64,000 nt of DNA, taken from the NCBI RefSeq assembly GCF_001540865.1, contig NC_033622.1, forward strand, positions 3,529,445 to 3,593,444. Reading direction: 5' to 3'. Below, in pieces: positions 1,111-64,000 of the stretch (position 1 is its first letter; every line of letters begins with the position of its first letter). The position numbers were made by a program, and so were the translations under genes. The notes beneath the pieces are model-generated. The model worked only from the letters and a program-made list of their open reading frames with translations, made no database searches and had not been told where the DNA came from. This DNA is from Ananas comosus. Taxonomy: Eukaryota > Streptophyta > Magnoliopsida > Poales > Bromeliaceae.

Positions 1111-1143
1111 TGTACCGGTACAAAAAAACCTTGTACCGGTACA
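1111..1143 (+). promoter_or_regulatory. Pair of ACCGGT palindromes upstream of the accessory ORF (element 1)
   Basis: Two perfect 12-bp palindromes TGTACCGGTACA lie at 1111-1122 and 1132-1143. They are followed at 1170 by CGGTTACAGCATTCG, which resembles CGGTTACAGCATTACG in the LTR of the same element (about 4043). The internal upstream region therefore shares sequence with the LTR promoter region. No convincing TATA box follows here. Confidence 0.5.
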
Positions 1144-1280
1144 AAACACTGTATACCGCGGTATTATATCGGTTACAGCATTCGTTTTTCCCCCAAACTC
1201 TTTCAAAATCCCTCATTTCTCTCACTAAAAATCCCAGGTGGTCTTTCTCCTTCAGATTCACGTATTTCCCCCCTAGATTT

Positions 1281-1639
1281 GTAAGTATTTTGCTTAGATT
1301 TGAAGATCTTATCCCGGTTTTGCTATTTTTTCAAAAAATTTCGAGTTGAAGCATGATCTGCATTTTGATTTGTTTTTGATGTAATTTTTTGCTGTGAATC
1401 AGTATTTGGACATATAATCTTGCTTCTAGAACACTTAGATCAAGTTATAACGCTGTATTTTTTGCTGATCTATGATCTGTACCTCAATATACATGAAATT
1501 TCGAAATTTTTGATAAAATGTCATTTTTTATTAAAGTTTTTGCATGATCTGGTTAGAAATAGCGTTAGTATGCATTCTAATATTATTAGAATTTTTTTCG
1601 CTATTTTTACAGATTTTTTCAAGATTTTGTTCATGCAAG
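1281..1639 (+). other. Predicted leader intron upstream of the accessory ORF (element 1)
   Basis: A strong donor GTAAGT at 1281 follows a pyrimidine-rich leader. A T-rich stretch ends in TTCATGCAAG at 1639, 21 bases before the ATG at 1661. The second Copia copy has a matching layout (52962-53357, donor GTATGA, acceptor TTTAACAG just before its ATG). The exon-intron layout looks like a plant gene 5' UTR. It is inferred from splice signals only. Confidence 0.4.
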
Positions 1640-1660
1640 GTTGATTTTTGTATAGAAAAA

Positions 1661-3067
1661 ATGGCGTTTTCGTTCGTGTTGCTAATTTTGGTGCTGATGG
1701 CCGCTGGTCGTGGTCGTGGACGTGGCCGCGGGCGTCGAGCGACGTCCAAAAGGACTCGTACTGCAGGCGAGTCACCCGGGTCTTATCCGGATTACCAGGC
1801 AAGTTCGCTTGAGGAAGCTGAAGAACCTATTGCTCGTCCTGACAAGGGCAAAGGCATCGCTGGAGAATCCTCGCGTGGAGGTGGTTCTCGTGCAAGAGAT
1901 ACATGATCAAAGCATGCCGCGGATGTTCTACAGGAGCGGCGGCGGACGTTTTCGAGTAGGTCATGTATTGCTGACCGCTATGTCAACTTCCATGACCTAA
2001 TCCAAGAAGTTCCAAATTTTGGTCGCTTACTACAGAGGGTCCCCATTGAGCCAGTTGGACGTGTTCCAGCTCGATCTCCTTTTTGTGTGGAACTCATTCG
2101 GGAGTTCTACATGAATGGGAAGGTGTGTTCTGAGGATGAAGAGACCGGGACTTATCTTCTTAAGACATATGCACGTGGGGAGAGGGTTCTAGTCACTCCA
2201 CACACGATTGGAGAGTTGTTGGGCATGCATGTTGACACGACAGGACTTCATCATACTGCTGGGATTTATCAGTCTTCGTCTCACTGGGAGACAGTTGTTC
2301 GTGCGATCTGCAAGGATGGAGTACGAACAAATCATGCATACGTGGAATCCAAGGATTTGCGTCCCGAGTATCATTTACTCTCCTTGGTGATGAGCTACAA
2401 TGTTCAATCTACAATTGGAACAAAAAGGATTCGGTGGGATCGTCTGGTGCTTCTATATCTCCTTGGATATCCTGAGCAAGCGGACGGGTTAAACATCAAT
2501 ATTCCCTTTCTGATGTGGCAAAGAATGACACATGTTATACAATCTCCAGTTTGACGTGATTTACTTCCGTTTCCATTGTTGATCATGAGGATTCTGCAAG
2601 AATACGGAGTTGACGTGTCGTGTGAGAAGTACGACACTGGACTTGGACCGATTGATGCTGTAACTTGGGCCAAGTCAGTCAGCACTCTGAGGACGTTTCA
2701 GCAAACAAAAGGATCGTCACGTGCAGCTTCCAATTCCGCACCTCCACCTCGAGCAGAGCGTGAGGGATATTCTAGTTCAGGGGGAGTGATTACTGTAGAA
2801 TCACTTCACCATGAGGTGCACTCTTTAAAGAAGAAAGTGACAGATCTTGCTAAAAAGGTGGAGGTGGGAATGAAGAGAATTATGGAAAAACTAGGGTGTA
2901 GGCATGATGATATATTTTCTACTCAGCCTACGTACACCACTTACACGAGGTCTACGTCGAGACACCCACTCATTCCACCATCCAGTGGTGCTCCTGAGGC
3001 TGGGGGATCTGGAGCTGGAGCAGGAGACGATGATGATGATGATGATGATGACGAGGACACTGAGTGA
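1661..3067 (+). pseudogene. Accessory ORF of Sirevirus-like element 1, putative plant transposon protein domain, two in-frame stops
   Basis: One continuous frame of 469 codons including the final stop, broken only by TGA at 1904-1906 and TGA at 2552-2554. Its length equals the intact copy at 53372-54778. In order it has a short hydrophobic N-terminus, a Gly/Arg-rich basic stretch, and a central domain with LIREFYM and LSLVMSYN motifs and an RWDRL...LLG...NINIPFLMW block. A predicted coiled coil (ESLHHEVHSLKKKV onward) and an Asp-rich tail follow. I place the central domain with the family annotated as putative plant transposon protein domain (Transposase_32 in Pfam, from memory). Its position after pol matches the envelope-like ORF of Sireviruses. 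The first stop could come from CGA to TGA by cytosine deamination. The function is unknown. Confidence 0.7.
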
Positions 3068-3670: not shown

Positions 3671-3684
3671 GCCAAGGGGGAGAT
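3671..3684 (+). other. Polypurine tract of Sirevirus-like element 1
   Basis: GCCAAGGGGGAGAT lies directly before the LTR start TGTTAAG, the expected primer for plus-strand DNA synthesis. Further purine tracts of similar type lie at about 548, 3247 (ACAAAAAAGGGGAGAG) and 3335, fitting the multiple tracts reported for Sireviruses. Confidence 0.6.
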
Positions 3685-4831
3685 TGTTAAGTCTTTTGTG
3701 TTGGCAAGTTTTATGAAGTGAGTCGGAGTCTTGAAGGATCGGTGCGTATTGTCGAAGATCAAAGAATCCAAGATTTCAAAGATAGCGGAATTAGAAGAAA
3801 GCGGAATTAACTCACTATGTGAATCACGATGCCCAGGTATGCTTTTAATTCATGTTATGGTGATTTATGCTTAGTTGTAGGCATTAGAATCATAATACCA
3901 AAGTTTACTGGATTAGAAAGTACATTGGTACTTTGCAAAACCCGAAATCGTAAAAAAATTGGGCCTTTGCAAAGTGTACCGGTACAGCATAAGAAGTGTA
4001 CCGGTACACATTCTGTTCCGGTACAGCAAGCAACTTTGTCACCGGTTACAGCATTACGCAGGTTTTTCTCTTTCGTCATCGTGTAACCGGTAACAGCTTA
4101 AAGTGTACCGGTACACAATGTAATTTTTGAAAAAAACTTTCTAATCCGACTCCAATTGATTCTAAAGTCTATAAATAAGTTATTGGGGTTCTCTAACAGA
4201 TCAAGCATCACGAAAATACATGTCTGAGAAACCCTAGAGGCTCGGATTTCATCTAAAACCTATTTTCTACATATTTGCCTCTTTTAGGTCAAATCGAGAT
4301 ATTGGAAATTCATATCTATATGTGGATTTGATCTTCGCTTCGCTTGGAGTTCTCTTCCTGGTTTTCATCGATACTCTAAGTGAAGGATCACCATACACAT
4401 GATGTTCTTCATGACGGCGACGTGGATTCGACGTGATTGACGGCGGTTCGTGAGTTTGGATCGTGAGCTTTGTGGATTCGGAGTGGAGGTGTTTCGTGGA
4501 TTCGAAACGTGGCGTTCGTGGATTCGAACGTGAGGGTATGGACAACCCGGAGGATTGCGCGAGATTCATAGGAGGTTAAGAGAGGTCGAGTCCGTGGAGT
4601 CGGTAATCACCTTGTAATCTTTTCTCTTAGTGAATTATTTTTTCGCGTGTTGGTCCCGCGGGTTTTTTACTCCAAGTTGGAGTTTTCCCACGTAAATCTC
4701 GGTGTGATTTTTATTTTCCGCATTTATTTTTATCGCATTGAAATTTGTGGTTTTTGGCTTTTACACCTATTCACCCCCTCTAGGTGTTAGATACAATCTA
4801 GATAGATCCTTGGGCTCCTTTAAAACTTTCA
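3685..4831 (+). repeat. 3' LTR of Sirevirus-like element 1
   Basis: Begins TGTTAAG right after the purine tract, like the LTR at 55288. It contains a cluster of ACCGGT palindromes (3975-4115) and then a TATA box (CTATAAATAAG at about 4170). Near its end is a region shared with the other LTR (CACCCCCTCTAGGTGTTA, then AGATCCTTGGG). The right end is set by analogy with the other LTR and is uncertain by about 30 bases. No second LTR of this copy is in the window. Confidence 0.65.
3975..4115 (+). promoter_or_regulatory. ACCGGT palindrome cluster in LTR 1
   Basis: Perfect TGTACCGGTACA sites at 3975, 3997 and 4104, a variant TGTTCCGGTACA at 4014, and ACCGGT cores at 4041 and 4086. The TATA box of the LTR follows about 55 bases after the last site, so these lie where upstream promoter elements would be. 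Palindromic motif arrays in the LTR are known for Sireviruses. Confidence 0.55.
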
Positions 4832-9540: not shown

Positions 9541-10026
9541 TTGGGCTGCTATACTATCGGTAACACGAAAGTTTTCGTGTTATCAAGTTGTTTTCAACGA
9601 TACGACTTCCAAATCAATTATTTGTTCCATTAGACTTAATCATTTATCAAGCGATCGAAAGGGTTCAAAATCAACGGTTGAAAATAAAAATCTCACAAAA
9701 ATTGGTGATATAGCATTAAAATTTTCGATCTGAGACATTGATCTTGCTGCAAATAGTATAAAAAATTTTCTATCAAAATTTCATATGATTTAAATACTTC
9801 TACACCGTTAAACTTGCAAACGATATACATCAGCCATTAAAAATTGTTGATTTTAAACCTTTTCGATCACTAGGTAAATGATATCGAAAAATCGCAAAAT
9901 TTATTTTCTAGATACTTCAAATATGCTAGATCAAGTCTAACGGAGCCGATCGTCGATTTGAAAACTGTATCATCGAAAACGGCTTAGGAGCACGGAGGCC
10001 TCCGTGCTCCTAATAGCACACAAGAC

Positions 10027-10027
<1 letters not shown>
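9541..10027. mobile_element. Hairpin-ended foldback MITE, copy 1
   Basis: Begins TTGGGCTGCTATACTATCGG next to a (GA)n tract and ends AATAGCACACAAGACCTA next to a (TC)n tract. The outer 20-30 bases at each end form hairpins (AACACGAAAGTTTTCGTGTT on the left, an AGCACGGAGGCCTCCGTGCT stem on the right). Internally, about 150-200 bases of the two halves are imperfect inverted repeats, with GATCGAAAGG opposite CCTTTTCGATC. No ORF. Flanking microsatellites recall Micron-type MITEs that target TA repeats; that assignment is an inference. Confidence 0.6.

Positions 10028-10107
<80 letters not shown>
10028..10107. repeat. (TC)n-(TA)n-(GA)n microsatellite at the centre of a large palindrome
   Basis: About 40 bases of TC repeat, 16 bases of TA repeat and about 22 bases of GA repeat are arranged as a mirror. 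Copies 1 and 2 of the MITE extend outward on either side in opposite orientation. Confidence 0.85.
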
Positions 10108-10640
10108 CAGGGCTGCTGTGCTCTCAGGAGCACGGAGGCCTCCGTGCTCCTGAGCCGTTTTCGATGATGGAATTTTCGAATCGACGATCGGCTCCGTTAG
10201 ACTTGATCTAGCGCATTTGAAGTTTCTAGAAAATAAATTTTGCGATTTTTCGATATCATTTATCTAGTGATCGAAAAGGTTTAAAATCAATAATTTTTAA
10301 TGGCTGATGTATATCGTTTGCAAGTTTAACAGTGTAGAAATTTTTAAATCATATGAAATTTTGATAGAAAATATTTTATATTATATAAAACAAGATCAAT
10401 AACTTTGATCTAAAATTTTAATGTCATATCATCATATTTTGTAAGATTTTTATTTTCACATTGATTTTGAGCCCCTTCGATCACTAGGCAAATGATATCG
10501 AAAAATCGCAAAATTTATTTTCTAGGTGCTTCAAATACTCTAGATCAAGTCTAACGGAGCCGATCGTCGATTCGAAAGTCCCAACATCGAAAACAAATTG
10601 GAGGCACGGAGGCCTCCGTGCTTCCATAAGCATACTAGCC
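10108..10640. mobile_element. Hairpin-ended foldback MITE, copy 2
   Basis: Begins GGGCTGCTGTGCTCTC with a hairpin stem AGCACGGAGGCCTCCGTGCT. It continues with TTTTCGATGATGG and CGACGATCGGCTCCGTTAGA, and ends with the mirrored order and another hairpin of the same stem type. Its left half is the near-perfect inverse of the right half of copy 1. Confidence 0.65.
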
Positions 10641-10856
10641 GCACTAGTGTAGTCAACAATTTTTAATCAACAATTTTTAATGGCTGATGTATATCGTTTG
10701 CAAGTTTAACAGTGTAGAAGTATTCAAATCATATGAAATTTTGATAGAAAATTTTTTATACTATTTACAGCAAGATCAAAGTCTCTGATCGAAAATATTA
10801 ATGCTATATCACCACTTTTTGTAAGATTTTTATTTTCAACCGTTGGTTTTGAACTA
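10641..10856. mobile_element. Partial copy of the same MITE
   Basis: From CAACAATTTTTAATGGCTGATGT through CAAGATCAAAGTCTCTGATC to TTTTCAACCGTTGG, this matches the inner part of copies 1 and 2. The ends with hairpins are missing. Confidence 0.55.
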
Positions 10857-11475
10857 TATATACACACACACAGATGTTATGGAACAAATATGAGAGCATG
10901 GCTAAAGATTAGGAACTGATGATGAAACTAGCCCTCCAAGATAAGGATCTCATTATAACCAAAAAAAATATAAAAAAAAAGGACAAAATAAAAAATAAAA
11001 AAAACTGACAAAGGTTGGTGATTAATAGTGCAATTAAACAAAAAAATATATATATAAAAAAACTTATCTTGCACATATAGTTTCCACAGGTAATTAAGAT
11101 GTCTCTATCTTGTGCCTAACCTGTATATTACTAGCCCCACTTTAATTGCTGTACCCTCAAGTTACGTAAAAGATCTAGATGTACAAGAAATAGTTATCAT
11201 CTGAATTTGAATATAAAAAAAATAAAAAAAACGGTTGCGACACCTAATGGGACTTAATAATTCTAATTTCGTTACTTAAATTAATAATATCATATGTCCG
11301 TTTTACTGTGCTCTTTTAGAATTAATAGAATTTTCAAAACTTCCTAATAAAATATATAATAAAAAATTATATAACTTGGAATAATATTTTGTAATTAATT
11401 AGTGATATTAATTAACTTATAAGAAAATTTGTGATAAATTTTGAGAAAATTAACATAAATTAAAAAATAAATGGT

Positions 11476-11489
<14 letters not shown>
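10857..11489. other. Non-coding sequence repeated at 13690-14345
   Basis: No gene recognised. The stretch (words such as GAAACTAGCCC and AAGATCTAGATGTACAAGAAATAG) recurs with many one-base differences at about 13725-14345. A (TA)n tract lies at its right end. Confidence 0.55.
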
Positions 11490-11506
<17 letters not shown>

Positions 11507-12089
11507 ATAAAATTTTAAAAATTATTTCTCAATTGTATAAAACCAAACAAATTATTTATAGTTGCAACGCTTTCTACTACATCCAACCAAACATGATTCA
11601 TATAGTTACAACAATATTTCCAACTGTATTGTATTTGTAATTATATTTAACCAAACGGGCCCTTAATGCAACTCGTTTCTCTTTTCAGTCTTCTAAATAA
11701 ATGGAGAATATTTTTTTTTGGGTAAATTGCATATTTGGTCTTTAAACTATAAGGTGGGTAACACTTTTATCTGCAAACTTTCATTTGTTATAACTTCTGA
11801 TTCAAACTTTCAGAATAGTTACATCAAATTATATAATTCAATTTAATTGACTAAATATTAATACATTATTAATATAGAAATGATGTTGTAATATTACGAT
11901 AATGATGTGCGAATTTCAATAGGTTGGATAAATAACTCAAAATTATCGATAGTTCAGATAAATTCTCTCAATTTTCATGAAAATAATACCTTCCAGTAAA
12001 TTATGTTTTAAACATATTAGAAAAATCACCTACTTTGGTTTTGATAGAAATTATGTTTAAGTTTTTTTTATTCGCTGCTTGATATGCTT

Positions 12090-12124
<35 letters not shown>

Positions 12125-14345: not shown

Positions 14346-14373
14346 TTAAATATTATTCGTTATTATATATATA

Positions 14374-14423
<50 letters not shown>

Positions 14424-15000
14424 GAGTGAGCTATATGCTATCTGAAGCACGGAGCCTTCGTGCTTCCAGCCTTTTCGATGTTGGCAGACTTTCGAATCGT
14501 CGATCGTTACCGTTTAAACTTGATCTAGAGTATGTGAGTACCTAGAAATAAAATTTTTATTATTTTTCGATATCATTTTGCCTGTGAAGCGAATGGCTGC
14601 AAAATCAATATGTCAATGCCGTAGTGACCGTGTTTGGCAAAGTTACGGTGTAAGAAATAATCTAAATCACGTAAAATTGATAGAAAATTCTTATACTAAT
14701 ATAAAACAAATGCAATATCTTTGATTTAAAATTTTAATGTCATAAGATTTATTTTTTAAACATTTTTTTTTTATAATTTTTTATTTTCAGGCCGTTAATT
14801 TATGAGCCCCTTCGTTCACATAGGCAATGATATCGTAAGAATCAATAAAATTTAATTTCTTAGTACTCCAAATACTCAAGACTCAAGTTTAAACGGAGCC
14901 GATCGGCGATTCGAAAGTCGCAACATCGAAAACGAGATGGAATGAACGGAAGGCCCGTGCTTCTATAGACATAGTAGCCTCCCTTCTCCATCTCTTCTAT
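14346..15000. mobile_element. Hairpin-ended MITE copy in (TA)n
   Basis: After a long (TA)n tract the sequence begins GAGTGAGCTATATGCTATCTG with a hairpin stem (GAAGCACGGAGCCTTCGTGCTTC). It continues with the family words TCGATGTTGG and CGTCGATCG, and ends in the mirrored order near 14990 before another TA tract. Many indels relative to copies 1 and 2. Confidence 0.5.
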
Positions 15001-15020
15001 ATATTATATAATATATAAGT

Positions 15021-15243
15021 GGCTAGAATACTTTTAACAAGTATCACTCAATGATATTATTTTTTAAATTTATGATTATAAAAGTTTGGATCAAACACTT
15101 ATTAAAACTCACCTACCAAAAAAATCACCACTACCACACCAATCATCATCAACCTCACAATCTCTAGCCATCCAAGCAAGAAAAACACACAATATAAACC
15201 CAAGGATACTTTATACCAAGTATTACATAAACTCTTAGCCTAA
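15021..15243. mobile_element. Short MITE with GGCTAGAATACTT ends
   Basis: The left end GGCTAGAATACTTTTAACAAGTATC and the right end GATACTTTATACCAAGTATTACATAAACTCTTAGCC are imperfect inverted repeats. Each contains its own small hairpin (ATACTT with AAGTAT). No ORF. Confidence 0.45.
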
Positions 15244-15770: not shown

Positions 15771-15789
15771 ATATAAGAGAGAAAGGGAG

Positions 15790-17720: not shown

Positions 17721-17745
17721 NNNNNNNNNNNNNNNNNNNNNNNNN
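17721..17745. other. Assembly gap (25 N)
   Basis: Exactly 25 unknown bases at the junction of the two copies of the duplicated segment. Confidence 0.95.
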
Positions 17746-19286: not shown

Positions 19287-19325
<39 letters not shown>

Positions 19326-41711: not shown

Positions 41712-43361
41712 GCGTGACACCCACAGTCCACATATCCATCTAACGGGGGAGGCACAAGGCACAACCACCCGAAGGATTTTCGCCGGGCACGTCTGCCCGT
41801 GGTGCTTTTATTCTCCGGAGTACACCACTCGTGGAGGAGCGACCTCACACAAGCCGGAACCAATACCTGTGAGTATGATCCCATCCTCAATTTGAGGAGG
41901 TATGGCCAACTTGTCACAATTCTCACTGTCTCAATGCCGATGAATGGTTAATACCTATTCATGCTCATGCTATCACTTGTCAATATCACGGTGGTCCTGA
42001 TGCCACAATACACATATGTCACTTGGGTTAAACCTTGTTTAATTATTCATTTATCGATGTCAATCGAGTCACTAATGTTCATGTCACCTTTGTTTACTAC
42101 GGTCACGGTCATTTCTTACATTCACATGCATATAGGGTCTTTCACTTTCCTTTTTCACATGGTTCTATATCACTACAATGATCTCAAACAGATAATTGTT
42201 ACAACCAACACATGCTGTTCATTATCCTATATGCAAGAATGCTATAATACCAATATGCTCAAATGATAAGACATAGACATAGAAAGAGATCCGGTGTTTC
42301 CGGATAGCACCCCCCACTTTTGTGTGTCACAAGGATGCCACGATTCCGATTCCACGATTTTTGGGCTTGTTCGCCGCAAGCTACGACGACCTGTACTATT
42401 TCAGCTTGTTTTCTTAATATCTTCGCGCAGACTCGTCGTATCGCTGAACCGAGCGCACCGTTGTGTTCGTAGACCTACCAATTAGGTTAAAATGAGATCA
42501 AACCCAAGTTTGAACCTCAAAATCACAAAACCCTAATTATACGTTCTTCACAATGTCATCTACTCCAATCAAGCCCCTAGCTTGACAAAACATGGAGGAA
42601 AATCACCATAAACCTCTCTAGATGCTTCAACTAGAAGCAAAAACCCAAAACTCAAACTAAAATCACAAGAACTCACCTTTGGAGTCCAAACCTTTCCTTC
42701 AAAGCCTTGCTCTAGCTTGGTCTTCACCTTGGAGAGCTTCTTCTCCAAGCTTTTCTCCTCCAAACCCTCCTTGGTGCAAGCCCTAGAGAGAGAGAGGGAG
42801 AGAGAAGAAAAGGGTTTTAGAGAGAGAGAGGGAAGGTTTGAGAGTGAGAGTGAGAACAAATGAGTTCTCACTCATGCCCTAGCCCATATAACCCTTCTCA
42901 AGCCATATTTGCATTTAAACCCCTTAACTTTTCATCTTTACAAACAGCCCTCACTGGGCATTTTCGGGCTCGGGGACTGGTCTCTCCCTTTCAGGGACCG
43001 GTTCCCGAGAGCTACCCTGCACTCTGCGCAGAAGGGGACCGGTCTCCCCCCGATGAAACCGGTCTCCGGGGACCGGTCTCCCGCCGAAGGACCGGTTCCC
43101 GAGAGCCCAGCTTCCAGGACTTAGCCGATTTTTCCTTCTGCTCGGCAGACCAACGTTCGGGAACCAGTCTCTCATCCAAGGGACCGGTCCCCGAGAGCAA
43201 AAATTCTGGAAATTGTCCAGAACTGTAGTTTCACTCTCGGGTTCCCTTATACTTCATATATAGGCTCCAATTCACTTTTAGCCTATAGTAGCTTATTCCT
43301 TTCCGTGTTCCCCTCATTTCGACGGAACTCGACACGACTCACGGGGAAGTGATATGTTACA
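41712..43361 (-). repeat. LTR A: 3'-truncated LTR of the three-LTR chromovirus complex
   Basis: Collinear with LTR B from about 48418 to 50060 but lacking about 760 bases at its left. It has the same words (TCTAACGGGGGAGGCACAAGGC, GGAGTACACC, GATAGCACCCCCCAC) and ends TGTTACA at 43361. It is more diverged from B and C than these are from each other. It carries six or more ACCGGT palindromes (42997-43188). It abuts integrase sequence directly, without a purine tract. Confidence 0.75.
42997..43188. promoter_or_regulatory. ACCGGT cluster in LTR A
   Basis: Cores at 42997, 43038, 43058, 43072, 43091 and 43183, most with GGGACCGGTTCCC or GACCGGTCTC flanks, plus decayed ACTGGT and ACCAGT sites. On the minus strand they lie downstream of a TATATAGG-type box (43256). 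Confidence 0.6.
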
Positions 43362-47649: not shown

Positions 47650-47656
47650 CACTATC

Positions 47657-50060
47657 TGTCACCCCCCGAGCTCCGCCAATTTGGTCGGATTCGAGCACAT
47701 GATAGACGCCGAACGGACAGCACCTCTACTGTCCGCCCAAGGCTCCAACATCAAGTATATTACAAGCAAATCAATAAAGAGAATTGCGAGATATACAAGG
47801 TTTGCACGAAGGTAAACAACAACCACAAGTGAAAGCATCGAAACTATCTGAGCATCCAATATACAAGTCATTTGACTTCATTTGAATCAAACACAAGTAG
47901 TCTATTACATTTACATTCACTTACCCATTCGTTTACATCACATTTTCCTTTAACCAAAATACATGATTTACATCATTCTTACATTACCCAAATATAATTT
48001 GCATTTCTTGCTTTACATCATTTACAGTTCAACACCTATAGTTGAGTACAACAAAATGTAGGGTATGCCTATATCTCGAGGGCCGCTAGCTATGGCGCGA
48101 TACCCTTGCCTCGATCCTCCGCCGCCTCGCTCGTGCACGGATCTGCAGGGTTAGTGATAATGAGAACTAGAACGAAGTTCCTAGTGGGTTCGGCCGCCGA
48201 CCACGCCGATTCGCCCACTAGGTCTATTTCAGGCATATGTATATCAATAAAGAAGGATAACTAACCAACTAATGCACTTTTAATACAATGCTTGCAAGAA
48301 AGCAATCCACAGATAGATATTCATATTCAAATACATGATGATTATGCATGCATGTTCATTTCTTATTTCCTTTGGCCTTTACCCAATCAACCCGGGGTGC
48401 TCCTGGTTTACCCTAAACTCACAATCCACACATCCCGTCTAACGGGGGAGGCACAAGGCTCAACCGCCCGAGGGATCTTCGCCGGGCACTCTCACCCGTG
48501 GTGTCTACACTCCGGAGTACACCGCTTGTGGAGAAGCGACCTCCCACAAGCCGGAACCAATACGTGTGAGTATGATCCAATTCTCAATTTGAGGAGGTAT
48601 AGCCAAACCTATCTCATGCCTCAATATCTCAATGCTAATGATAGGTTCTATCATATCATATATACCACCAATATGAGCCACAATGGTCCTGATGCCATAA
48701 TACACATAATGTGAATTGGGTTAAACCTTGTTTAACTATACTCATTTCAATGCTAATCGAGTCACTATAGTCAATGTCACCGTTATTTACTATGGTCATA
48801 GTCTTTTCTCACATTCATATGCATATAGGGTTATTCATTTCTTTTGTTCACATGTGCCTATATCACTCACAATAATCTTAAGCAGATAATTGGTGCTATC
48901 AACATATACCATTCATTACCCTACATGCAAGAATGCTATAATACCAACATGCTCAAAAGTAGTGACATAGACATAGAAAGAGACTCGGTATTTTCGGATA
49001 GCACCCCCCACCTTTGTGTGATACAAGGATGCCGTGGTTCTGTTTTCACGATTTTTAGACACTTTCGTCGCGAGCCGCGGCAATCTGTACCAATTCAGCT
49101 TCTTTTTTCAATATCTTCGCGTACGCTCGTCATATCGCCGAACCGAGCGCACCGATGTGTTCGTTGACCTACCAATTAGGTTAGAATGAGATCAATCCCA
49201 AGCTTTGACCTCATTTTTACAAAATCCCAAATTTGGGTCCCTGTACAACATCATCTTCTCCATTTTAGGTCCTCAACATGAAGAAAATGGAGATAATCCA
49301 CTATAGAGATCTCTAGATGCTTCAACTAGAAGCAAAAACCCAAAACCTAACTTAAAATCACAAGAACTCACCTTTGGAGTCCAAAACTTTCCTTCAAAGC
49401 CTTTCTCTAGCTTGCTCTACACCTTGGAGAGCTTCTTCTCCAAGCTTGCTCCTCCAAAAGCCCTCTTGGTCCAAGCCCTAAAGAGAGAGGAAAAGGGAGA
49501 GGAGAGGTTTTTAGAGAGAGAGAGGGAGAAGCTTTGTATTGTGAGGGTGAGAAATGAGCCCTAACACTAGCTCTCTCACATACATACACCTATCTCAAGT
49601 CACTTTTGCACATAAGTCCCTTACATTTTTATTTTTGCAAACAACCCTTACTGGGCAAATCCCGGGCTCGGGGGCCGGTCTCTCTAGCAAGGGACCGGTT
49701 CCCGAGAGCTACCCCGCAGCCTTCGCAGAAGGGGACCGGTCTCCCCCCAATGCAACCGGTCTCTCGGGACCGGTCTCTCACCCAGGGACCTGTTCTCGAG
49801 AGCTCAATTTTCAAGGACTTAGCCGATTTTTCCCTCTGCTCGGCTGATACGTTTTCGAGGGCCGGTCTTTCCCCTCAAGGACCGGTTCCCGAGAGCCCAA
49901 AATCTGGGACTTAGCCAGATTTTGCAATTTCACTCTCTCGGGTCCTTTTAACATTTATATAGGTTCCAATGCGCTTTTAGCCTACAGTAACTCATTCCTT
50001 TCCGCGTTCCGCACATTTCGACGGAACTCGGCACGACTCACGGGGAATTGCTATGTTACA
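47657..50060 (-). repeat. LTR B: shared LTR of two Gypsy copies
   Basis: TGTCACCCCCC at its left end and TGTTACA at its right end (minus strand TGTAACA...GGTGACA), 2404 bases. A primer site adjoins its left side and a purine tract (reverse of TTCTCCACCCCTT) its right side, so it serves both as 5' LTR of G1 and as 3' LTR of G2. Nearly identical in content and length to LTR C. Five or more ACCGGT sites lie at 49694-49886, downstream of a TATATAAATG box (about 49965) on the minus strand. Confidence 0.9.
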
Positions 50061-50401: not shown

Positions 50402-51785
50402 TTAAGAATAAGAAAAATGAGGATGGTACTATTGTGCGGAACAAAGCTAGACTTGTGGCTCAGGGGTACTCACAAATTGAGGGAATAGACTTTGAAGAAA
50501 CCTTTGCTCCGGTTGCCCGTCTTGAATCTATTCGTATCTTGTTCGCGATTGCTTGCCATTTTAAAATCACGCTCTTTCAAATGGATGTCAAAAGTGCGTT
50601 TTTAAATAGATTTTTGAAAGAGGAAGTTTATATTGAACAACCGAAAGGTTTTATAGACTCAAAATTTCCAAATCACGTTTTCGACTGAAAAAGGCACTTT
50701 ATGGACTAAAACAGGCTCCGCGCGCATGGTATGAACGCTTGACAAAATATCTTTTGGAAAAGGGCTACAACCGAGGGGGAGCGGATAGAACTCTCTTTGT
50801 AAAACACTTGAAGGATAATTTCATTGTGGCACAAATCTATGTTGATGACATAGTCTTTGGTGCAACTAAAGATAAGGATGCCGCTGATTTTGCAAAGTTA
50901 ATGACCAGCGAGTTTGAGATGACGATGATGGGGGAGCTTAATTATTTCCTTGGACTTCATGTTAAACAATCAAAAGATGGAATTCATTTGTCTCAGACCA
51001 AGTATGCAAAGGAACTGGTTAAGAAATTTGGATTGGACAATGCAAAGGATTTTGACACTCCAATGGGTACAAGCAACAAAGGACTGGGATTGAATTCAGA
51101 AGGTCAGAGTGTGGATGAGAAACAATACAGAAGCATGATTGGTAGCCTATTGTACTTGACTGCGAGCAGACCAGATATTGCGTTTAGTGTTGGAATTTGT
51201 GCTCGTTATCAGGCTAACCCTAAGGAAGTACATCTGAAAGCAGTTAAAAGGATCATTCGGTATGTTAAAGGAACAACCGAGTATGGCCTCTGGTATCCTA
51301 TGGGAACATCTCTTGATCTAATCGGCTACTCAGATGCTGACTGGGCAGGCTCCGCAGATGATCGGAAAAGTACTAGTGGAGCTTATTTTTACATTGGACA
51401 CTGTCTGGTTGCTTGGCACAGTAAGAAGCAAAACTGTATTGCTCTTTCAACTACAGAAGCTGAATACATTGCGGCCGGAAGTTGCTCTACTCAATTGCTC
51501 TGGATGAAGAGTTTACTAAGCGACTATCGGATCCCTTCCACCACTCTTACCATTCTGTGTGACAACACAAGTGCAATTAATATTTCTAAAAACCCTGTTT
51601 TACATTCTCGAACAAAACATATTGAACTAAGATATCACTTTTTAAGAGAACTGGTTGAATCAAACGTTTTACAACTTGAATACATTTCAACTGAGAATCA
51701 ACTTGCAGATATTTTAACCAAACCTTTGGATCAAAAGCACTTTCTGCATTTAAGAAAGGCAATTGGTATGAATCCTTCAATCTAG
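50402..51785 (+). pseudogene. pol: Copia reverse transcriptase and RNase H, truncated and frameshifted
   Basis: Starts within the palm/fingers ([41 protein letters not shown]). At about 50683 one base is lost and the frame moves. It then continues with KKALYGLKQAPRAWYERL, the active site YVDDIVFG and the RNase H domain (GYSDADWAGSADDRKSTSG, WHSKKQNCIALSTTEAEYIA, HSRTKHIELRYHF, QLADILTKPL), ending NPSI at 51785. The RNase H part is complete. The original N-terminal portion is missing. Confidence 0.92.
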
Positions 51786-52139: not shown

Positions 52140-52440
52140 TAATTTAGGGGGAGTCTTTCCAATTTTGGCTATAAAATTTCTGAAATTCAAGATGTGGAAA
52201 GAGTTACATCCCGGCTGGGAGTGTGAAACTACCACCACATGGAGGAAAGAGCTACCACCCCGGTCGTCTGGTTAGTGTGTGCAGCTACCACGTGTTGATT
52301 AAAATATCTCTGTAAGACAAAAGGGAAGTACCTTTCATAAATAAAAAAATATGCTCAAAGAGCTTTACATCTTGTAGGTGATATAAGGTGGAATGTTAAT
52401 AAAAAGATGCTCAAAGAGCCACTCCTGTCTCGAATAATGT
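52140..52440 (+). other. Conserved non-coding block after pol in Sirevirus-like element 2
   Basis: Begins AATTTAGGGGGAGTC (purine-tract-like) and contains GAGTTACATCCC, CTACCACCACATGGAGGAAAGAGC, TACCACCCCGGTCGTCTGG and GATGCTCAAAGAGCCACTCC, in the same order as at 540-860. A second, partial GCTCAAAGAGC copy lies at 52354. Confidence 0.55.
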
Positions 52441-52790: not shown

Positions 52791-52822
52791 GAGACCGGTC
52801 CCATGAAGGAGAGACCGGTCCC
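52791..52822 (+). promoter_or_regulatory. ACCGGT pair upstream of the accessory ORF (element 2)
   Basis: GAGACCGGTCCC occurs at 52791 and 52811, the same motif and flank type as in the LTR of this element (55519-55762). The pair lies about 140-170 bases before the predicted leader intron, at the position matching 1111-1143 in element 1. Confidence 0.5.
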
Positions 52823-53371: not shown

Positions 53372-54778
53372 ATGTACTCGTGGATTATTGTGCTTGTTGT
53401 TCTCATGGCTGGGGGTGGTCGCGGGAGCAAACGTCAGCGCTCCTCGTCTAAACGGCCGGTTGAGCATCAACCGGAAGATGAAGGGAGTGAATATGCTCCA
53501 GGTGATGAATCTGAGGCTGAGGAGGACGAGCCGGATTGGGAGGCTTTTTCTCCAGAGGTGTTATCTAAGGAAAAGGATACAAGAAAAGGAAAAGGCAAAG
53601 GAAAAGCTGTTGAAAAAGGGAAAGGCAAAGCTCAGGAAAAAGGGAAAGGAAAGGCATCTGAAAGTCGTCGCAAGTCTGGTGGTGTTGAAATTCGAGAACC
53701 AGGTTCTGAGCCACCACGTCACAGTCTGCAGGATATTCCTTCTGCTCGACGGTCCATGTACTCGTCAAAGCATTGTATTGGTGAACGCGATGTTGACGTT
53801 GCCAGTATCATTAGCTGTGTGCTAGGATTTCAGGATTTATTTGAAAAAGGAAACCTTCATCAGATTTGTGATTTCCCGGAACAGACTGGTTTTTGTTTAG
53901 GGCTGATCAGAGAATTCTATATGAGAGCAGGTCACTTGAGTGATTCTGATGGTGGCCCGTACGTTTTCACTACTTCTGTACGTGGTGTTGAGTTATCCAT
54001 TACTCCTGATACGATAGCGTCGGTGCTAGGTATGGAAGCTAAGACTGACGGAGTGGAGTATCTACAAGCTCGGTTCGACTCACTTCGCGATTGGAATCGT
54101 GTAGTGAACACTATTTGCATGCCGGGAACTGAGTCAAACGGCATTATGGTTATGTCCAAAGATTTCAAAATGGAGTACCGTTTTTTAAACTTCGTGGTTT
54201 GCTACAACATTCTGCCTCTCGCAAACACGAAGATTCTGAGATGGGATCGTATTCTGTATATGTATCTCTTGGGAAGGCCAGATATTGTAAGTGCGAAAAA
54301 TATTAACATGAATATTCCGTTTCTGATCTGGCGGAGGATGGCAAAAGACATCAAAGCTTCTGGACAAAATGAAAGGTTGCCATTTCCATTGATAATCATG
54401 AGGATTCTGCGACTTCATGATGTGGATGTTCGGTGTACATCTTATGAGCACAGTTTGGGTCGGATAAATGAAAGGACTTTTGTGAAGTCCTCGGTGCAGC
54501 TTTGTACTCCGTCTCAGCGCGCTTCTTCCCCTCCTGCTGCTCCACCTCCTGCTACTGCTACATCTTCCCGTCCTTCTATGGACATTTCCGAGGAAGATAT
54601 CTCAGTTTCCTCTGTATATCGTGAGCAACAACGTTTATCTGAAGAGCTTCAGAAACTGTCTGCGGAGCAAGCTGCGATTTGGAAGGATGTGAGCAAGATG
54701 AAGCGACTATTGAATATGATTTTTGACAAGTTGGGATGTTGCCGAGCAGATTTACCTCCAGGGGATGCTTCAGATTAG
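53372..54778 (+). CDS. Accessory ORF of Sirevirus-like element 2, putative plant transposon protein domain, intact
   Basis: A 468-codon open frame plus stop, equal in length to the broken copy at 1661-3067. In order: a short hydrophobic N-terminus (MYSWIIVLVVL; a second ATG at 53405 gives MAGGGRG), a basic Gly/Arg/Lys-rich part with GKGKGKA repeats, and the central domain (LIREFYM, FLNFVVCYN, RWDRILYMYLLG, NINMNIPFLIWRRM, RILRLHDVDVRC). A Pro/Ala/Thr-rich spacer and a predicted coiled coil (QRLSEELQKLSAEQ ... KMKRLL) follow. I assign the centre to the putative plant transposon protein domain family. Position after pol matches the envelope-like ORF of Sireviruses; the hydrophobic start and coiled coil also fit that type, but no fusion-protein features are seen. 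Function unknown. It remains open although pol next to it is broken. Confidence 0.7.
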   Translation: MYSWIIVLVVLMAGGGRGSKRQRSSSKRPVEHQPEDEGSEYAPGDESEAEEDEPDWEAFSPEVLSKEKDTRKGKGKGKAVEKGKGKAQEKGKGKASESRRKSGGVEIREPGSEPPRHSLQDIPSARRSMYSSKHCIGERDVDVASIISCVLGFQDLFEKGNLHQICDFPEQTGFCLGLIREFYMRAGHLSDSDGGPYVFTTSVRGVELSITPDTIASVLGMEAKTDGVEYLQARFDSLRDWNRVVNTICMPGTESNGIMVMSKDFKMEYRFLNFVVCYNILPLANTKILRWDRILYMYLLGRPDIVSAKNINMNIPFLIWRRMAKDIKASGQNERLPFPLIIMRILRLHDVDVRCTSYEHSLGRINERTFVKSSVQLCTPSQRASSPPAAPPPATATSSRPSMDISEEDISVSSVYREQQRLSEELQKLSAEQAAIWKDVSKMKRLLNMIFDKLGCCRADLPPGDASD

Positions 54779-55273: not shown

Positions 55274-55287
55274 CCAAAGGGGGAGAT
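55274..55287 (+). other. Polypurine tract of Sirevirus-like element 2
   Basis: CCAAAGGGGGAGAT next to the LTR start TGTTAAGG, as in element 1. Confidence 0.7.
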
Positions 55288-56499
55288 TGTTAAGGATTTT
55301 ATAGGTTGGCGGATTTCGTAATGTTGAATGGAGTCTTGAAGAGTTGATTGCAGAAGATTGAAGAAAAGATCTAAATTGAAGGAAAAAGACTCACTCGTAA
55401 AGTTCGGCACCTAAGGTATGAAGAAAAGATCATTTGTGATGAAGATATTTGATTAGAATAAGTTCAGAAGGCTTAGATTGCTTTAAAAATACTTTACTGA
55501 ACTTTTCTGTGTTCAGGGACCGGTCCCTGAGGTCAAGAGACCGGTTCCCCTAAGGTCCTCACTGCGTGAACTTTGATGCAACCGGTCCCCTGAGATGAGA
55601 GACCGGTTCCCGAACCTTGGTATTTCTGTCGCGCAGCGAGGGACCGGTCTCAAGCTTGAGAGACCGGTTCCCGAACGTTGTGATTTTGGTCACGCAGTGA
55701 GGGACCGGTTCCTCACTTGAGAGACCGGTCTCTCACAGACCGGTCTCCTCGAGAAGACCGGTCTCTGAGGACGACACAGGTTTTTAAAAAGGACTTTTTG
55801 CAATCCTAGTCTACTTCTAAGTCTTCTAAACATATAAATAAGCTATGTGGGTCATCTAAAAGTTTAAGGCTTTGAATATTGACAGATTCTAAACCCTAGA
55901 AACTTTTTTTTTCCGTTTCAATGCTTCGATTCACATAACGAGTTTCTAACAATCAACAATCGGCTTGATTCTTCGTTTTTACTCGATAACTCATACGAGA
56001 ATCAAGTAGATTTTTGATTAAAGGTGAACCCTCATAGCTTATGGTATTCAAAGGTTAAATCATCACAAATCTTCGATTCTACAAGCTCCGGAAGGAGGTT
56101 CGACGCGTGGATCTCGCGTGAAGTCGAGGATTCGGTGAACGTTTCGAGGAATTGAGGCGTTGACGCTGCAAGGAGTTGCAGCAAGGTCGATTGGTGGATT
56201 CCTATCGATCGAGGACCGGCGAAGATCACCATCAATAAGAAATCGGTAAATTAAGTCGTGTATTTTTGTCAAAATCACTTGTACTCAAGTTTTCTTAGTG
56301 GATTTTCTTCGCGTGATCGGTCCCGTGGGTTTTTCACTCCGAATTGGAGTTTTCCCACGTTAAATTCTCGGTGTGCTGTTTTATTTTTCGCTACTTTATT
56401 TTATTTGCATCGAGATTTTTGAGTTTGCCGTTTTTACACCCATTCACCCCCCCTCTAGGTGTTACTTACCTTTTAGATCCTCGGGATCCATATCTTACA
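55288..56499 (+). repeat. 3' LTR of Sirevirus-like element 2
   Basis: Starts TGTTAAGG after the purine tract. It contains ten ACCGGT palindromes (55519-55762), a TATA box CATATAAATAAG at about 55838, and the CACCCCCCCTCTAGGTGTTA region. It ends CTTACA at 56499, where Gypsy reverse transcriptase sequence (GAAAGACCC) resumes. Confidence 0.8.
55519..55762 (+). promoter_or_regulatory. Array of ten ACCGGT palindromes in LTR 2
   Basis: Cores at 55519, 55540, 55581, 55602, 55643, 55663, 55704, 55724, 55739 and 55757. They come mostly in pairs about 20 bases apart, the pairs repeating about every 60 bases (GGGACCGGT then GAGACCGGTTCC). This pattern is a higher-order tandem repeat just upstream of the TATA box. 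Confidence 0.75.
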
Positions 56500-57631: not shown

Positions 57632-57639
57632 AGCAGGTG

Positions 57640-59123: not shown

Positions 59124-59139
59124 CATCGCTCTGATACCA
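59124..59139 (-). other. Primer binding site of G2 (initiator Met tRNA)
   Basis: Minus strand TGGTATCAGAGCGATG, next to LTR C, identical to the site next to LTR B. Confidence 0.8.
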
Positions 59140-59146
59140 CACTATC

Positions 59147-61548
59147 TGTCACGCCCCGAGCTCCGCCAATTTGGTCGGATTCGAGCACATGACAGACGCC
59201 GAACGGACAGCACCTCTACTGTCCGCCCAAGGCTCCAACATCAAGTATATTACAAGAAATCAATAAAGAGAATTACGAGATATACAAGGTTTGCATGAAG
59301 GCAAACAACAACCACAAGTGAAAGCATCGAAACTATCTAAGCATCCAATATACAAGTCATTTGACTTCATTTGAATCAAACACAAGTAATCTATTACATT
59401 TACATTCACTTACCCATTCGTTTACATCACGTTTTCCTTTAACCAAAATACATGATTTACATCATTCTTACATTACCCAAAATATAATTTGTATTTCTTG
59501 CTTTACATCATTTACAGTTCAACACCTACAGTTGAGTACACCAAAATATAGGGTATGCCTATATCTCGAGGGTCGCTAGCTACGGCGCGATACCCTTGCC
59601 TCGATCCTCCGCCGCCCTGCTTGCCCACGGATCTGCAGGGTTAGTGGTAATGAGAACTAGAACAAAGTTCCCAGTGGGTTCGGCCGCCGACCACGCCGAT
59701 TCGCCCACTAGGTCTATTTTAGACATATGTATATCAATAAAGAAGGATAACAAACCAACTAATGCACTTCTAATACAATGCCTGCAAGAAAGCAATCCAC
59801 AGATAGATATTTATATTCAAATACATGATGATTATGCATGCATGTCCATTTCTTATTTCCTTTGGCCTTTACCCAATCAACCCGGGGTGCTCCTGGTTTA
59901 CCCCAAACTCACAATCCACACATCCAGTCTAACGGGGGAGGCACAAGGCTCAACCGCCCGAGGGATCTTCGCCGGGCACTCTCACCCGTGGTGTCTACAC
60001 TCCGGAGTACACCGCTTGTGGAGGAGTGACTTCCCATAAGCCGGAACCAATATGTGTGAGTATGATCCCATCCTCAATTTGAGGAGGTATAGCCAAACCT
60101 GTCTCATGCCTCAATATCTCAATGCTAATGATAGGTTCTACCATATCATATATACCACCAATATGAGCCACAATGGTCCTGATGCCATAATACACATAAT
60201 GTGACTTGGGTTAAACCTTGTTTAACTATACTCATTTCAATGCTAATCGAGTCACTATAGTCAATGTCACCATTATTTACTATGGTCATAGTCTTTTCTC
60301 ACATTCATATGCATATAGGGTTATTCATTTCCTTTGTTCACATGTGCCTATATCACTCACAATAATCTTAAGCAGATAATTGGTGCAATCAACATATACC
60401 ATTCATTACCCTACATGCAAGAATGCTATAATACCAATATGCTCAAAAGTAGTGACATAGACATAGAAAGAAACTCGGTATTTTCGGATAGCACCCCCCA
60501 CCTTTGTGTAATACAAGGATGCCGTGGTTCTGTTTTCATTATTTTTAGACACTTTCGCCGCGAGCTGCAGCAATCTGTACCAATTCAGGTTTTTTTTTTT
60601 CAATATCTTCGCACACGCTCGTCGTATCGCCAAACCGAGCGCACCGATGCGTTCGTTGGCCTACCAATTAGGTTAGAATGAGATCAACCCCAAGCTTCGA
60701 CCTCATTTTTACAAAACCCCAAATTTGGATCTCTATACAACATCTTCTCCATTTTAAGTCCTCAACATGAAGAAAATGGGAAAAATCCAATATAGAGATC
60801 TCTAGATGCTTCAACTAGAAGCAAAAACCCAAAACCTAACTTAAAATCACAAGAACTCACCTTTGGAGTCCAAAACTTTCCTTCAAAGCCTTGCTCTAGC
60901 TTGCTCTACACCTTGGAGAGCTTCTTCTCTAAGCTTGCTCCTCCAAAAGCCCTCTTGGTCCAAGCCCTAGAGAGAGAGAGAGAGGGAGAGGAGAGGTTTT
61001 TAGAGAGAGAGAGGGAGAAGCTTTGTGTTGTGAGGGTGAGAAATGAGCCCTAACACAATCTCTCTCACATACATACACCTATCTCAAGTCACTTTTGCAC
61101 ATAAGCCCCTCACATTTTCATTTTTGCAAACAGTCCTTACTGGGCAAATCCCGGGCTCGGGGACCGGTCTCTCTAGCAAGGGACCGGTTCCCGAGAGCTA
61201 CCCCGCAGCCTTCGCAGAAGGGGACCGGTCTCCCCCCGATGCAACCGGTCTCTCGGGACCGGTCTCTCAGCCAGGGACCGGTTCCCGAGAGCTCGATTTC
61301 CAGGACTTAGCTGATTTTTCCCTCTGCTCGGCTGATATGCTTTCGGGGACCGCTCTCTCCCCTCAGGGACCGGTCCCCGAGAGCCCAAAATCTGGGACTT
61401 AGCCAGATTTTACAATTTCACTCTCTCGGGTCCCTTTAACATTTATATAGGTTCCAATGCACTTTTAGCCTACAGTAACTCATTCCTTTCCGCGTTCCTC
61501 ACATTTCGACGGAACTCGGCATGACTCACGGGGAATTGCTATGTTACA
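59147..61548 (-). repeat. LTR C: 5' LTR of Gypsy copy G2
   Basis: TGTCACGCCCC to TGTTACA, 2402 bases, collinear with LTR B over its full length. ACCGGT cores at 61163, 61183, 61224, 61244, 61258, 61277 and 61369. It is followed by GGTAT, the same five bases that follow LTR A. Confidence 0.9.
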
Positions 61549-62175
61549 GGTATGCTACAGTTAGGGTTGAAGATCTCTCCTCCAACAAGCTCCTAACCAA
61601 GCTCCAAAGCTTCTACCATGGTGGAAAGGTCACCAACAAGCAAAGAGAAGCAAAAAGAGGTGATTAATCCTAAAAAATCCCAATAAAAAGGAAAGAAAAT
61701 CAAAGAGAGGAAGAGGAAAAGCTCCTTACCCTTCTCTCCTCAGGTTCCAAGCTCAGGGAACAAGAAAGGGGGCGTGGGGTATATATAGAGTTGTAACAAA
61801 CTCAAAAAACCCCTCCACAATCGTGCAGTCTGCATCTGCACTTCGTACCGGTATGCGGGCTGGTGTTCCTGTACCAGGCAGCAGCACGTGCAAACCTGAG
61901 TCTCGGGTTGGCGAGAAAATACACTTGGTACCGGTACCATCGCGATGAAGTACTTGTACCAGGTCCAGTACCGGTACTCTGCCCTGTAGAGTCCAACCCG
62001 AGAGCAGCGCAAATCCATCATTTTAGAGATTTTAGTGCTAAGTTTTCATCCTCACCCCTCGGGACGCGAGTCATAGGTCGGAACACAGTCAACGACCATA
62101 CAGAAAATCCAAAAAGGCTCGGATCACCAATAAAACACTCGAACCTTGCAATTTGCTAAAGTTTAGTGTGTTACA
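61549..62175 (-). repeat. Fragment of another Gypsy LTR (minus orientation)
   Basis: Ends TGTTACA at 62175 (minus TGTAACAC) and contains a minus-strand TATA box (CTATATATACCCC, about 61785). ACCGGT palindromes of the TACCGGTA type lie at 61847, 61930 and 61970. It is a family different from LTRs A-C. The rest is missing. Confidence 0.55.
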
Positions 62176-62289
62176 CATGATCCATAATACAAGGTTCTCA
62201 ATCGTCATGTCTCAAACATGGAATGTCCTCTACCGGCCTATAGGTTGGGAACTAAGTCCAATATCAAATGCTAGTTATCAACTAGATCT
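62176..62289. other. Short spacer between two oppositely oriented LTRs
   Basis: No feature recognised. Confidence 0.4.
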
Positions 62290-64000
62290 GTAACATACCG
62301 AAACCTCGGTAATTAAATTCGAACCTTGGTCAAATTGACCAAAGTGCGAGGTTGGTATACTTCAGAGAGGCCGAAGGCGTCAAATAATGCAAAATGCATT
62401 ACTGGCGATCTTCGAGAGCTTTTGGAAATTAAAATCTGCAAACTGCAGGTTTTGTGCACTCGGGGACTGGTCCTTGGTGGGAGAGACCGGTCTCCGAACG
62501 CGTAGGCAGCAAGAAGGCCGAGAAATCGGCTAAGTCCTAGAAAACCAGCTCTCGGGAACCGGTCCTTGCGAGGAGAGACCGGTCCCCAGAGACCGGTTCC
62601 ATCGAGGGAGACCGGTTGCATCGCGCGCAGTCTGCGCAGTCCGTGGGAGAAGCTCTCGGGGACCGGTCCCAGGTCGGGGAGACCTGTCCCTCACTGCGAA
62701 AAATGCCCAGTCTGGGCTGTGCACTGGGAATAAAGTGGAGGGGTCTTGGTGGAAATGTTACAACACCTTATATACTCAACCCTTTTCCCGTTCCTCAGCC
62801 AAAACCCCCCCCCACTCCTCTCATTTCCTTTCCCCTCTCTCTCTAGAACTCACCTAGGGCTTGAAGGAGAAGAAGAAGAAGAAGCTTGAGGAGGGATCCT
62901 TGGTGGATTTGGTGGGTCTAGAAGCTCTCCAACAAGAAGGAGCTTTCTAGGAGTTGGACTAGGGGTAAGTTCTTATAGGATTTCCTCTAGGGTTTGGGTT
63001 TTGACCTAAGGATTTTGAGCTTTGTGCTTCTTAGAGGTCTTAGAAGCTCTTTTGAGCCAAGAACAACATGACACCCATGAGAGCTCAAGGTGCTCTCACG
63101 GTGAACTCTTGGGGGTTGAGTTAGATACCCTAGGGTTGGTTCCAAGAGCTTAGAAACTTTATTAGAGAGCTTCCTAAGTGATTCTAACCTATCCTTTGCT
63201 TAGCAACAAGATCGATCTAGGTGGAAGCCCTAGATGACATTGTTAGGGCACCAAATTTGGGGCTTTCGTCCTAGAATTTTTCGAGGGCGAATTGACCTCG
63301 TAGAAACCTAATTGGGGTGTCCTCGATGCGTTGGACAACTCCGTTCGACGTTACGAAAATATTTAAATATGGTTCATGTACAAAAGGCCTAATGTGGCAC
63401 TATTTTGGTTATAGAACGCGGAATCGGCTTTCGTAAAGTTCGGGAGTCGTCATATTCTACACCCACACGACCACTCGAGGTGGGTGGTGCATTCCAAAGA
63501 CCTCGAAAATCCCTTTATGTCTAAAGTGTCATGTTAGAACAAATATGTATATATATTGAGCATGTTGCATAGTAGGATTAATTGTAAGCTTTTATAGCAT
63601 GATTGTGAATTTAATTTCGTATGAAATACTTGTAAGAATGTGAGAATTGTAAACCCTATTTATGCATGACAAGTAACAAGAACCTAGAAGGGTTAGTGAA
63701 CAAAAGTGACACATGGAGATAGATCTAGTGAGTGACATTGATGAGTCTAGAACACTTAGAAAACAAGTGTGGCATGAGTACAATAACTTAGTAGTGCATA
63801 TGACACTAGCGATAGTAAAGAATGCAAAGAAAAGAATGATCGAAATATTATGACATTTCAACCTTAGAGTTAAGGGTCATTTGAGCATGGTCTTCCTTAA
63901 AGTTAAGGAATGGATTGAACTTAGAATCCTCAATGTAGGATTGAGCGTACTCACCTTTAATCCTTGCTCGAGGGTGGTAGCTCCCCCTGAGGGAGAGAGG
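62290..64000 (+). repeat. 5' part of a + strand Gypsy LTR, running off the window
   Basis: Begins TGTAACATACC. It carries ACCGGT sites of the GACCGGTC type (62486, 62558, 62578, 62592, 62611, 62662), then a TATA-like CCTTATATACTC at 62766, then a purine-rich transcribed region (AGAAGAAGAAGAAGAAGC). No coding sequence is seen to the window end. Confidence 0.6.

Follow-up and report, generated by a model that had tools for sequence, protein, structure and literature searches.

Helically spaced ACCGGT palindrome arrays in two dialects in Copia and Gypsy long terminal repeats of pineapple

We analyzed a 64,000-nucleotide stretch of the pineapple (Ananas comosus) genome, hereafter the window (contig NC_033622.1, positions 3,529,445 to 3,593,444, forward strand), in which two Copia elements (Copia 1 and Copia 2) and five Gypsy-type long terminal repeats (LTRs A, B, C, Y, and Z) carry arrays of the palindrome ACCGGT. 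The arrays are written in two spellings, or dialects, each present in both superfamilies and unmixed within each array sampled, and the palindromes are placed by helical turn, an observation that is new in this analysis. We consider it somewhat more likely than not that shared proteins bind the palindromes in both superfamilies and act on the adjoining promoter.

The window contained 53 exact ACCGGT sites, as compared with a mean of 9.17 and a maximum of 18 in 100 dinucleotide-preserving shuffles. Nine clusters contained 46 of these sites, the remaining seven being single, and all nine lay either in an LTR or in the linker 5′ of the env-like open reading frame (ORF) of Copia 1 or Copia 2. An earlier reading of this DNA (the original prediction) had listed such clusters and had restricted them to LTRs and to the region just upstream of one ORF. 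All of them were present where it placed them, and the restriction stood. Moreover, each of the seven LTRs exceeded its own shuffles (500 each), for instance Copia 2 with 10 sites (shuffled mean 0.20, maximum 3) and Gypsy LTR C with 7 (mean 0.34, maximum 3), so that within the window, a density equal to shuffled expectation is refuted. The two sites in the Copia 1 linker exceeded a shuffle maximum of 1, and the two in the Copia 2 linker equaled a maximum of 2. The predicted arrays in Gypsy LTRs A, B, C, and Z do exist, but they are homologous and thus represent one lineage in the window, not four separate witnesses.

Genome-wide counts were made in the Ananas comosus assembly (381,958,007 bases in 3,128 contigs). 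Dialect T was defined as GTACCGGTAC and dialect G as RRACCGGTYY, counted as the word GGGACCGGTTCC, with the reversed words as null. The T word occurred 26,897 times versus 852 for its reversed control, and the G word 4,000 times versus 280. The reversed T word, CATGGCCATG, is an imperfect null: its 852 copies, with 125 pairs at 20–22 bp, may be a separate palindrome array. The first 10 places listed for G, when cut out, all lay within arrays (three overlapping one another), and the majority resembled Gypsy LTRs. Among the first 20 T clusters listed, 18 had at least three ACCGGT in 901 bases, one had two, and one had a single site; T..A flanks were found at 70 of their 75 sites and G..C at none. 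As a low-array control, 10-kb stretches at 1.00–1.01 Mb of 20 contigs (C1–C20), all near one end of the contigs, yielded 14 ACCGGT over 200 kb, without any dense array.

No array mixed the two spellings among 40 distinct arrays of at least three sites each, drawn from 39 loci (the window arrays in L031 counted, the overlapping L003–L005 merged). The 26 T arrays comprised 103 sites, of which 94 had T..A flanks, 9 were of neither type, and none was R..Y; in the 14 G arrays, R..Y flanks were found at 92 of 92 sites. The choice of loci relied on either a single-dialect word or the Y LTR, and at least one site per word-picked array is therefore not free in these counts. Within Copia 1, the predicted spelling GT-ACCGGT-AC was found at five of seven sites, whereas at 4041 and 4086 the core is intact and the flanks differ.

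The original prediction also held that each dialect occurs in both superfamilies, and this was borne out by Copia 1 and Y for T, by Copia 2 and A–C for G, and by additional genome loci. Copia T is represented by Copia 1 and a relative, L045 (T..A at one of its three sites), Copia G by Copia 2 and L009 (94% identical), Gypsy G by LTRs A, B, and C plus L008, and Gypsy T by the Y family; most of the 20 T loci have no superfamily class. The Gypsy nature of LTR fragment Y is not visible within the window but is supported by its genome copies: three of the five probed (three of four, plus none of one) had Gypsy gag or reverse transcriptase (RT)/RNaseH/integrase matches about 4–6.5 kb downstream on the same strand, which may, copy by copy, reflect nesting. 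One Y copy, L041, gave no coding match downstream, and L039 (C17:6926500-6931000), 3′ of a Y-type LTR, gave no match to window proteins; L039 contains degenerate tandem repeats of short units, which can be read in several frames. The T-dialect Y shares its promoter region with the G-dialect Z (z=6.1) and its LTR 5′ end with the G-dialect L001 (z=12.4), a locus classed from its LTR alone. These likenesses across dialects indicate that the dialect switches while the LTR frame persists. Another T-dialect LTR type, starting with TGTGGTATCCCTGG, TGTAGTGTCCCTGG, or similar, recurs at L046, L050, L053, L057, L059, and L062. Two loci probed for this type, L064 and L065, gave no match to window proteins; L064 has opposite-strand ORFs and by eye looks like a long interspersed nuclear element.

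The spacing of the palindromes is strongly constrained. Genome-wide, exact T pairs numbered 6,024 at 20–22 bp, as compared with 125 for the reversed control, 6 at 14–16 bp, and 18 at 25–27 bp. Random scatter of the 26,897 T sites would give, by simple arithmetic, about 6 pairs in every 3-bp class; despite the clustering, the out-of-register classes are thus close to background. The near-absence of out-of-register pairs points to a protein on duplex DNA. In the window, 14 pairs lay at 20–22 bp versus 3.0 by random placement (p=0.0002), in a test that pooled six arrays, two of them homologous, counted one-mismatch sites, and omitted Gypsy A, B, and Y. When periods of 7–14 bp were scanned over 74 consecutive spacings of 24–120 bp from 49 arrays, the best period was 10.4 bp (R=0.73, phase −0.6 bp); T spacings alone (n=38) gave 10.5 (R=0.62) and G spacings alone (n=35) gave 10.2 (R=0.92). 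When repeats of a spacing within a linked group were dropped, leaving 39 spacings in 8 groups, R was still 0.59 (p=0.0002), the groups being linked with palindromes unmasked and duplicates in, so that same-dialect Copia 2 and Gypsy arrays may share a group. G arrays also contain steps of 14–15 and 18–19 bp, which singly are out of register, and adjacent steps total 33–34 bp.

The arrays also hold a characteristic position. In five of the seven LTRs, a TATA-like box lies 63–111 bp past the last site: 63 bp in Copia 1, 76 bp in Copia 2, 65 bp in Y, and 106 bp in Z, with a TATA-like word at 111 bp in A. In the linkers, the Copia 1 pair is followed by a TATA-like word at 29 bp, and no such word occurs within 450 bp past the Copia 2 pair.

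Comparison of the Gypsy LTRs pointed to the core itself as the conserved part. For the pairs A–B, A–C, A–Z, C–Z, and B–Z, core identity was 93–98%, that of the remaining unique 3′ region (U3) 46–74%, and that of CpG outside the core but within the array 55–69%. The core differed from the rest of U3 plus spacers with Fisher p-values of 4e-4 to 8e-10, 4-bp flanks being omitted and sites treated as independent.

Collectively, these observations suggest the following scheme. The palindrome (core ACCGGT, half-sites TACCG or GACCG) would be bound by a protein dimer, and dimers, lined up along a single face of the helix at intervals of about two turns, would act on the promoter directly downstream. 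Two related specificities would exist, T (GTACCGGTAC) and G (RRACCGGTYY), one per LTR family, and both Sirevirus Copia and Del-type Gypsy elements would exploit these proteins. The binders are probably plant-encoded, since the partial Gypsy loci examined contained no relative of ORF3, the env-like ORF of Copia 2.

Several points weigh against this scheme. The main weakness is that the LTR families are related and their spacings not independent, the groups being uneven (21 and 25 of the 53 arrays fall in two of them); when each linked group was represented by one array, R was 0.47 over about 9.5 spacings and the median best period was 9.9. In the window, none of the three sites of the Y array has a partner at 20–22 bp, and LTRs B and C have no TATA-like box near the array. 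Core conservation was not general either: the recent pair B–C showed no difference (core 95% versus 92% elsewhere), and the Y family (28 pairs) had a core identity of 84% versus 81% for the rest, with CpG outside the core at 66% (core above rest in 19 of 28 pairs, above CpG in 27 of 28). This pattern of identities would fit elements that are under selection while active and decay neutrally once inserted. Furthermore, our literature searches found no binding protein for the palindromes, and some likeness between Copia and Gypsy LTRs lies outside the arrays: masked Copia 1 scored z 3.4 and 3.1 against Gypsy B and C, and the LTR 5′ ends of Copia 2 and L001 gave z 3.6.

This likeness bears on the possibility that recombination or template switching moved palindrome units between Copia and Gypsy, the shared dialects being the same DNA, which we regard as unlikely. 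With palindromes masked, Copia 2 versus five Gypsy LTRs gave z-values of −0.5 to 1.1, that is, no clear homology, and Copia 1 gave −1.3 to 3.4, its top value coming from outside the array. Thus, homology extending beyond the motifs does not seem to account for the dialects, the masked alignments not being clearly above shuffles, and the results agree better with binding proteins in common than with wholesale exchange. Some signals do favor exchange. With palindromes fixed, Copia 2 and Gypsy A aligned with a score of 61 versus a null of 44–48 (p 0.0010–0.0015, best of 40 pair-orientations; p=0.0005 with an alternative shuffle; spacers alone p=0.02). Array offsets in Copia 2 (0, 20, 61, 81, 96, 114) and Gypsy C (0, 20, 61, 81, 95, 114) are at most 1 bp apart when C is read on the + strand, although C is transcribed on the − strand. 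Long Copia 2 spacers versus Gypsy-type spacers gave a mean z of 0.57 in sense and 0.65 in antisense, and the best pair, Copia 2–L001, reached p=4e-5 (100,000 shuffles, best of 66 comparisons), or p=0.004 when flanks were trimmed by 5. The L001 5′ end, which resembles that of Copia 2, scored z 2.1 against Z and 1.2 against C. Exchange of one unit is possible on these alignments, and wholesale homology is not supported. Of the two explanations offered by the original prediction, the common factor is therefore favored by core conservation, helical spacing, and the lack of clear masked homology, and motif exchange retains the Copia 2–L001 spacer.

It seems improbable that the factor is encoded by the elements themselves, with ORF3 as a DNA-binding activator or anti-silencing protein that Gypsy elements parasitize. 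The placing of palindromes both in the LTR and 5′ of ORF3 in the two Copia elements would suit this idea. However, the sole Pfam match of ORF3 is PF20167 (Transposase_32), which has no stated DNA-binding function, and its N-terminus is hydrophobic, as is typical of env-like proteins. Its predicted fold, from three sequences, was unusable, with a predicted local distance difference test score (pLDDT) of 36.6, and only one of the 20 T loci, in listed order, matches the Copia 1 LTR at length. A precedent is VANC of Arabidopsis, which binds arrays of short motifs within non-coding portions of its own elements, the motifs differing from family to family (PMC5735166).

We give still less credit to selection for RNA or cruciform structure, whereby transcripts would fold via the palindromes, either to be packaged or incidentally, as a source of small RNAs. 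Array RNAs do fold beyond shuffles (z −8.0, −6.7, and −6.5), and maize Sirevirus palindromes are small-RNA hotspots according to PMC5311732 and PMC10760457. Yet any repeated palindrome folds, the 10.4-bp phasing and the scarcity of pairs at 14–16 and 25–27 bp are left unexplained, and the arrays lie 5′ of the TATA-like box in five of seven LTRs. Finally, spreading of a chance palindrome by tandem duplication of 20-, 41-, or 61-bp units, of which the 61–62 bp tandem units of Copia 2 are reminiscent, is hardly credible, because spacers within T pairs vary widely by eye while the spacing is fixed, the core outlasts spacers between families (A–Z, C–Z, and B–Z spacers being less conserved than the core), and the same spacing recurs in both dialects and both superfamilies.

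On the Copia side, the arrays are the Sirevirus repeated motif (RM) of Bousios et al. (2010; PMC2829016), and what the original prediction took as known background, the LTR palindrome arrays of Sireviruses, is already described in that article. There, as in pineapple, CGG/CCG palindromes occur in multiple copies in the upper LTR before the TATA box and again 5′ of the env-like gene, and the half-sites CGGTA (Inga) and CGGTC (Osr8, Osr10, and Vitis) are the same as in dialects T and G. The pineapple half-sites overlap as CCGG, whereas most of the RMs listed there run CGG...CCG. That study, which examined Ty1/copia elements, states that the motif is absent from classic ones, and its authors were unable to identify a shared factor that binds it. 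Pineapple differs in that arrays also occur in Gypsy LTRs, that one genome holds two dialects, and that spacing is helical; in PMC2829016, “helical” and “spacing” appear in the reference list only and “periodic” nowhere. In maize, PMC10760457 likewise describes palindrome arrays in the LTRs of Sirevirus Copia elements, with a Copia palindrome also in Helitrons, but Ty3/Gypsy elements are generally without an obvious structured peak, whereas pineapple Gypsy LTRs carry arrays. The VANDAL/VANC system resembles the pineapple one by its short motif arrays, their non-coding location, and family-specific spellings; as described in PMC5735166, it differs in that VANDALs are DNA transposons with a protein of their own and motifs in one orientation, instead of palindromes in helical register. 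Among the papers listed by literature searches, none was found to deal with arrays of ACCGGT, or of palindromes in general, in Gypsy LTRs.

A wider version of the shared-protein reading can be put forward tentatively: a small group of related plant proteins that bind DNA at the half-sites CGGTA/CGGTC might be exploited regardless of superfamily, elements switching spelling while keeping their LTR, and the Sirevirus RM might be one case of it. The matching spellings in Gypsy LTRs, together with thousands of in-register pairs, point to a definite protein assembly, and a binder of the palindromes is directly searchable by pull-down. Such a palindrome code could give a rule for the co-expansion of unrelated retrotransposon families in one host.

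Table 1. Copia and Gypsy features of the window
Feature	Position	Strand	Remarks
Copia 1 linker array, two GTACCGGTAC spaced 21 bp, 5′ of env-like ORF	1114..1140	+	
Copia 1 env-like ORF, broken	1661..3067	+	Transposase_32 (PF20167) match in piece 2087-2554
Copia 1 terminal polypurine tract (PPT) AGGGGGAG and AT/TG attachment site	3675..3686	+	
Copia 1 3′ LTR, right end approximate	3685..4795	+	T-dialect array 3978-4112
Gypsy LTR A, partial, nested in integrase of element B	41719..43361	-	G-dialect array 42997-43188
Gypsy LTR B	47651..50060	-	Followed by primer-binding site (PBS) at 47638; G-dialect array 49694-49886
Copia 2 reverse transcriptase	50739..51785	+	RVT_2
Copia 2 linker array, two GAGACCGGTCCC spaced 20 bp, 5′ of ORF3	52794..52819	+	
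Copia 2 env-like ORF3	53372..54778	+	Transposase_32 (PF20167)
Copia 2 3′ LTR	55288..56479	+	Array 55519-55762, ten G-dialect sites
Gypsy LTR C	59146..61548	-	Followed by PBS at 59128; G-dialect array 61163-61374
Gypsy LTR Y, fragment interrupted by C	61549..62174	-	T-dialect array 61847-61975
Gypsy-type LTR Z, runs beyond window end	62288..64000	+	G-dialect array 62486-62667

As judged from their sequences, Copia 1 and Copia 2 show the hallmarks of Sireviruses, namely, the PPT and its extra copies, a PF20167 ORF, the RM, a TATA-like box, and, in Copia 2, a Copia RT. The Copia 2 terminal PPT, AGGGGGAG followed by AT/TG, lies at 55278. Additional PPT copies were found in Copia 1 in the linker at 551 and at 2779 within the broken ORF, and in the Copia 2 linker at 52146 and 54826. 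The ORFs listed for the window included no pol ORF of Copia 1, and no 5′ LTR of either element, whose Sirevirus junction would be CA/ATTGG with PBS TATCAGAGC, was recognized within it. The 3′ ends of the two LTRs are 81% identical across 195 bp; their arrays, which differ in dialect (T versus G), do not align. The Copia 2 ORF3 shares 88% identity with P0001, a protein of Ananas comosus, which was the sole relative returned by each of two protein searches. In both env-like ORFs (53372-54778 and that at 1661), an initial hydrophobic stretch precedes a basic repeat. Outside the arrays, the linkers share a 115-bp box (616-728 in Copia 1, 52189-52302 in Copia 2) that is 85% identical. Donor-like GTAAGT/GTATGA words stand at 1281 (Copia 1) and 52962 (Copia 2), with an acceptor-like AACAGG at 53355 (Copia 2). 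A 5′ untranslated region intron between linker array and env-like ORF is possible and would fit an internal promoter.

On the Gypsy side, the PBS TGGTATCAGAGC adjoins LTRs B and C on the minus strand and also occurs at 938 of L043, a Y copy. Matches to Gypsy gag, RT, RNaseH, and integrase follow LTRs B and C (elements B and C), the integrase ends being truncated. LTRs B and C are 95% alike. We rejected LTR A as the 3′ LTR of element B: it starts within the B integrase and shares about 81% identity with B and C, and is thus a nested, more diverged relative. Z aligns with A–C chiefly in the array (75–80%), and a Z-type LTR follows a Gypsy integrase in L008. The LTR form of A, B, C, and Y is one that we take to be Del-like. 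Del elements are abundant in pineapple, according to PMC6022998, and we infer from this abundance and from the LTR form that the Gypsy elements probably belong to the Del lineage.

Scans of viral contigs found no relatives. Elsewhere in the window, a 748-amino-acid ORF at 36458-38704 has an ornithine/arginine decarboxylase domain and is presumably an intronless arginine decarboxylase. The region 9637-19645 contains numerous direct and inverted repeats, about 73–95% alike.

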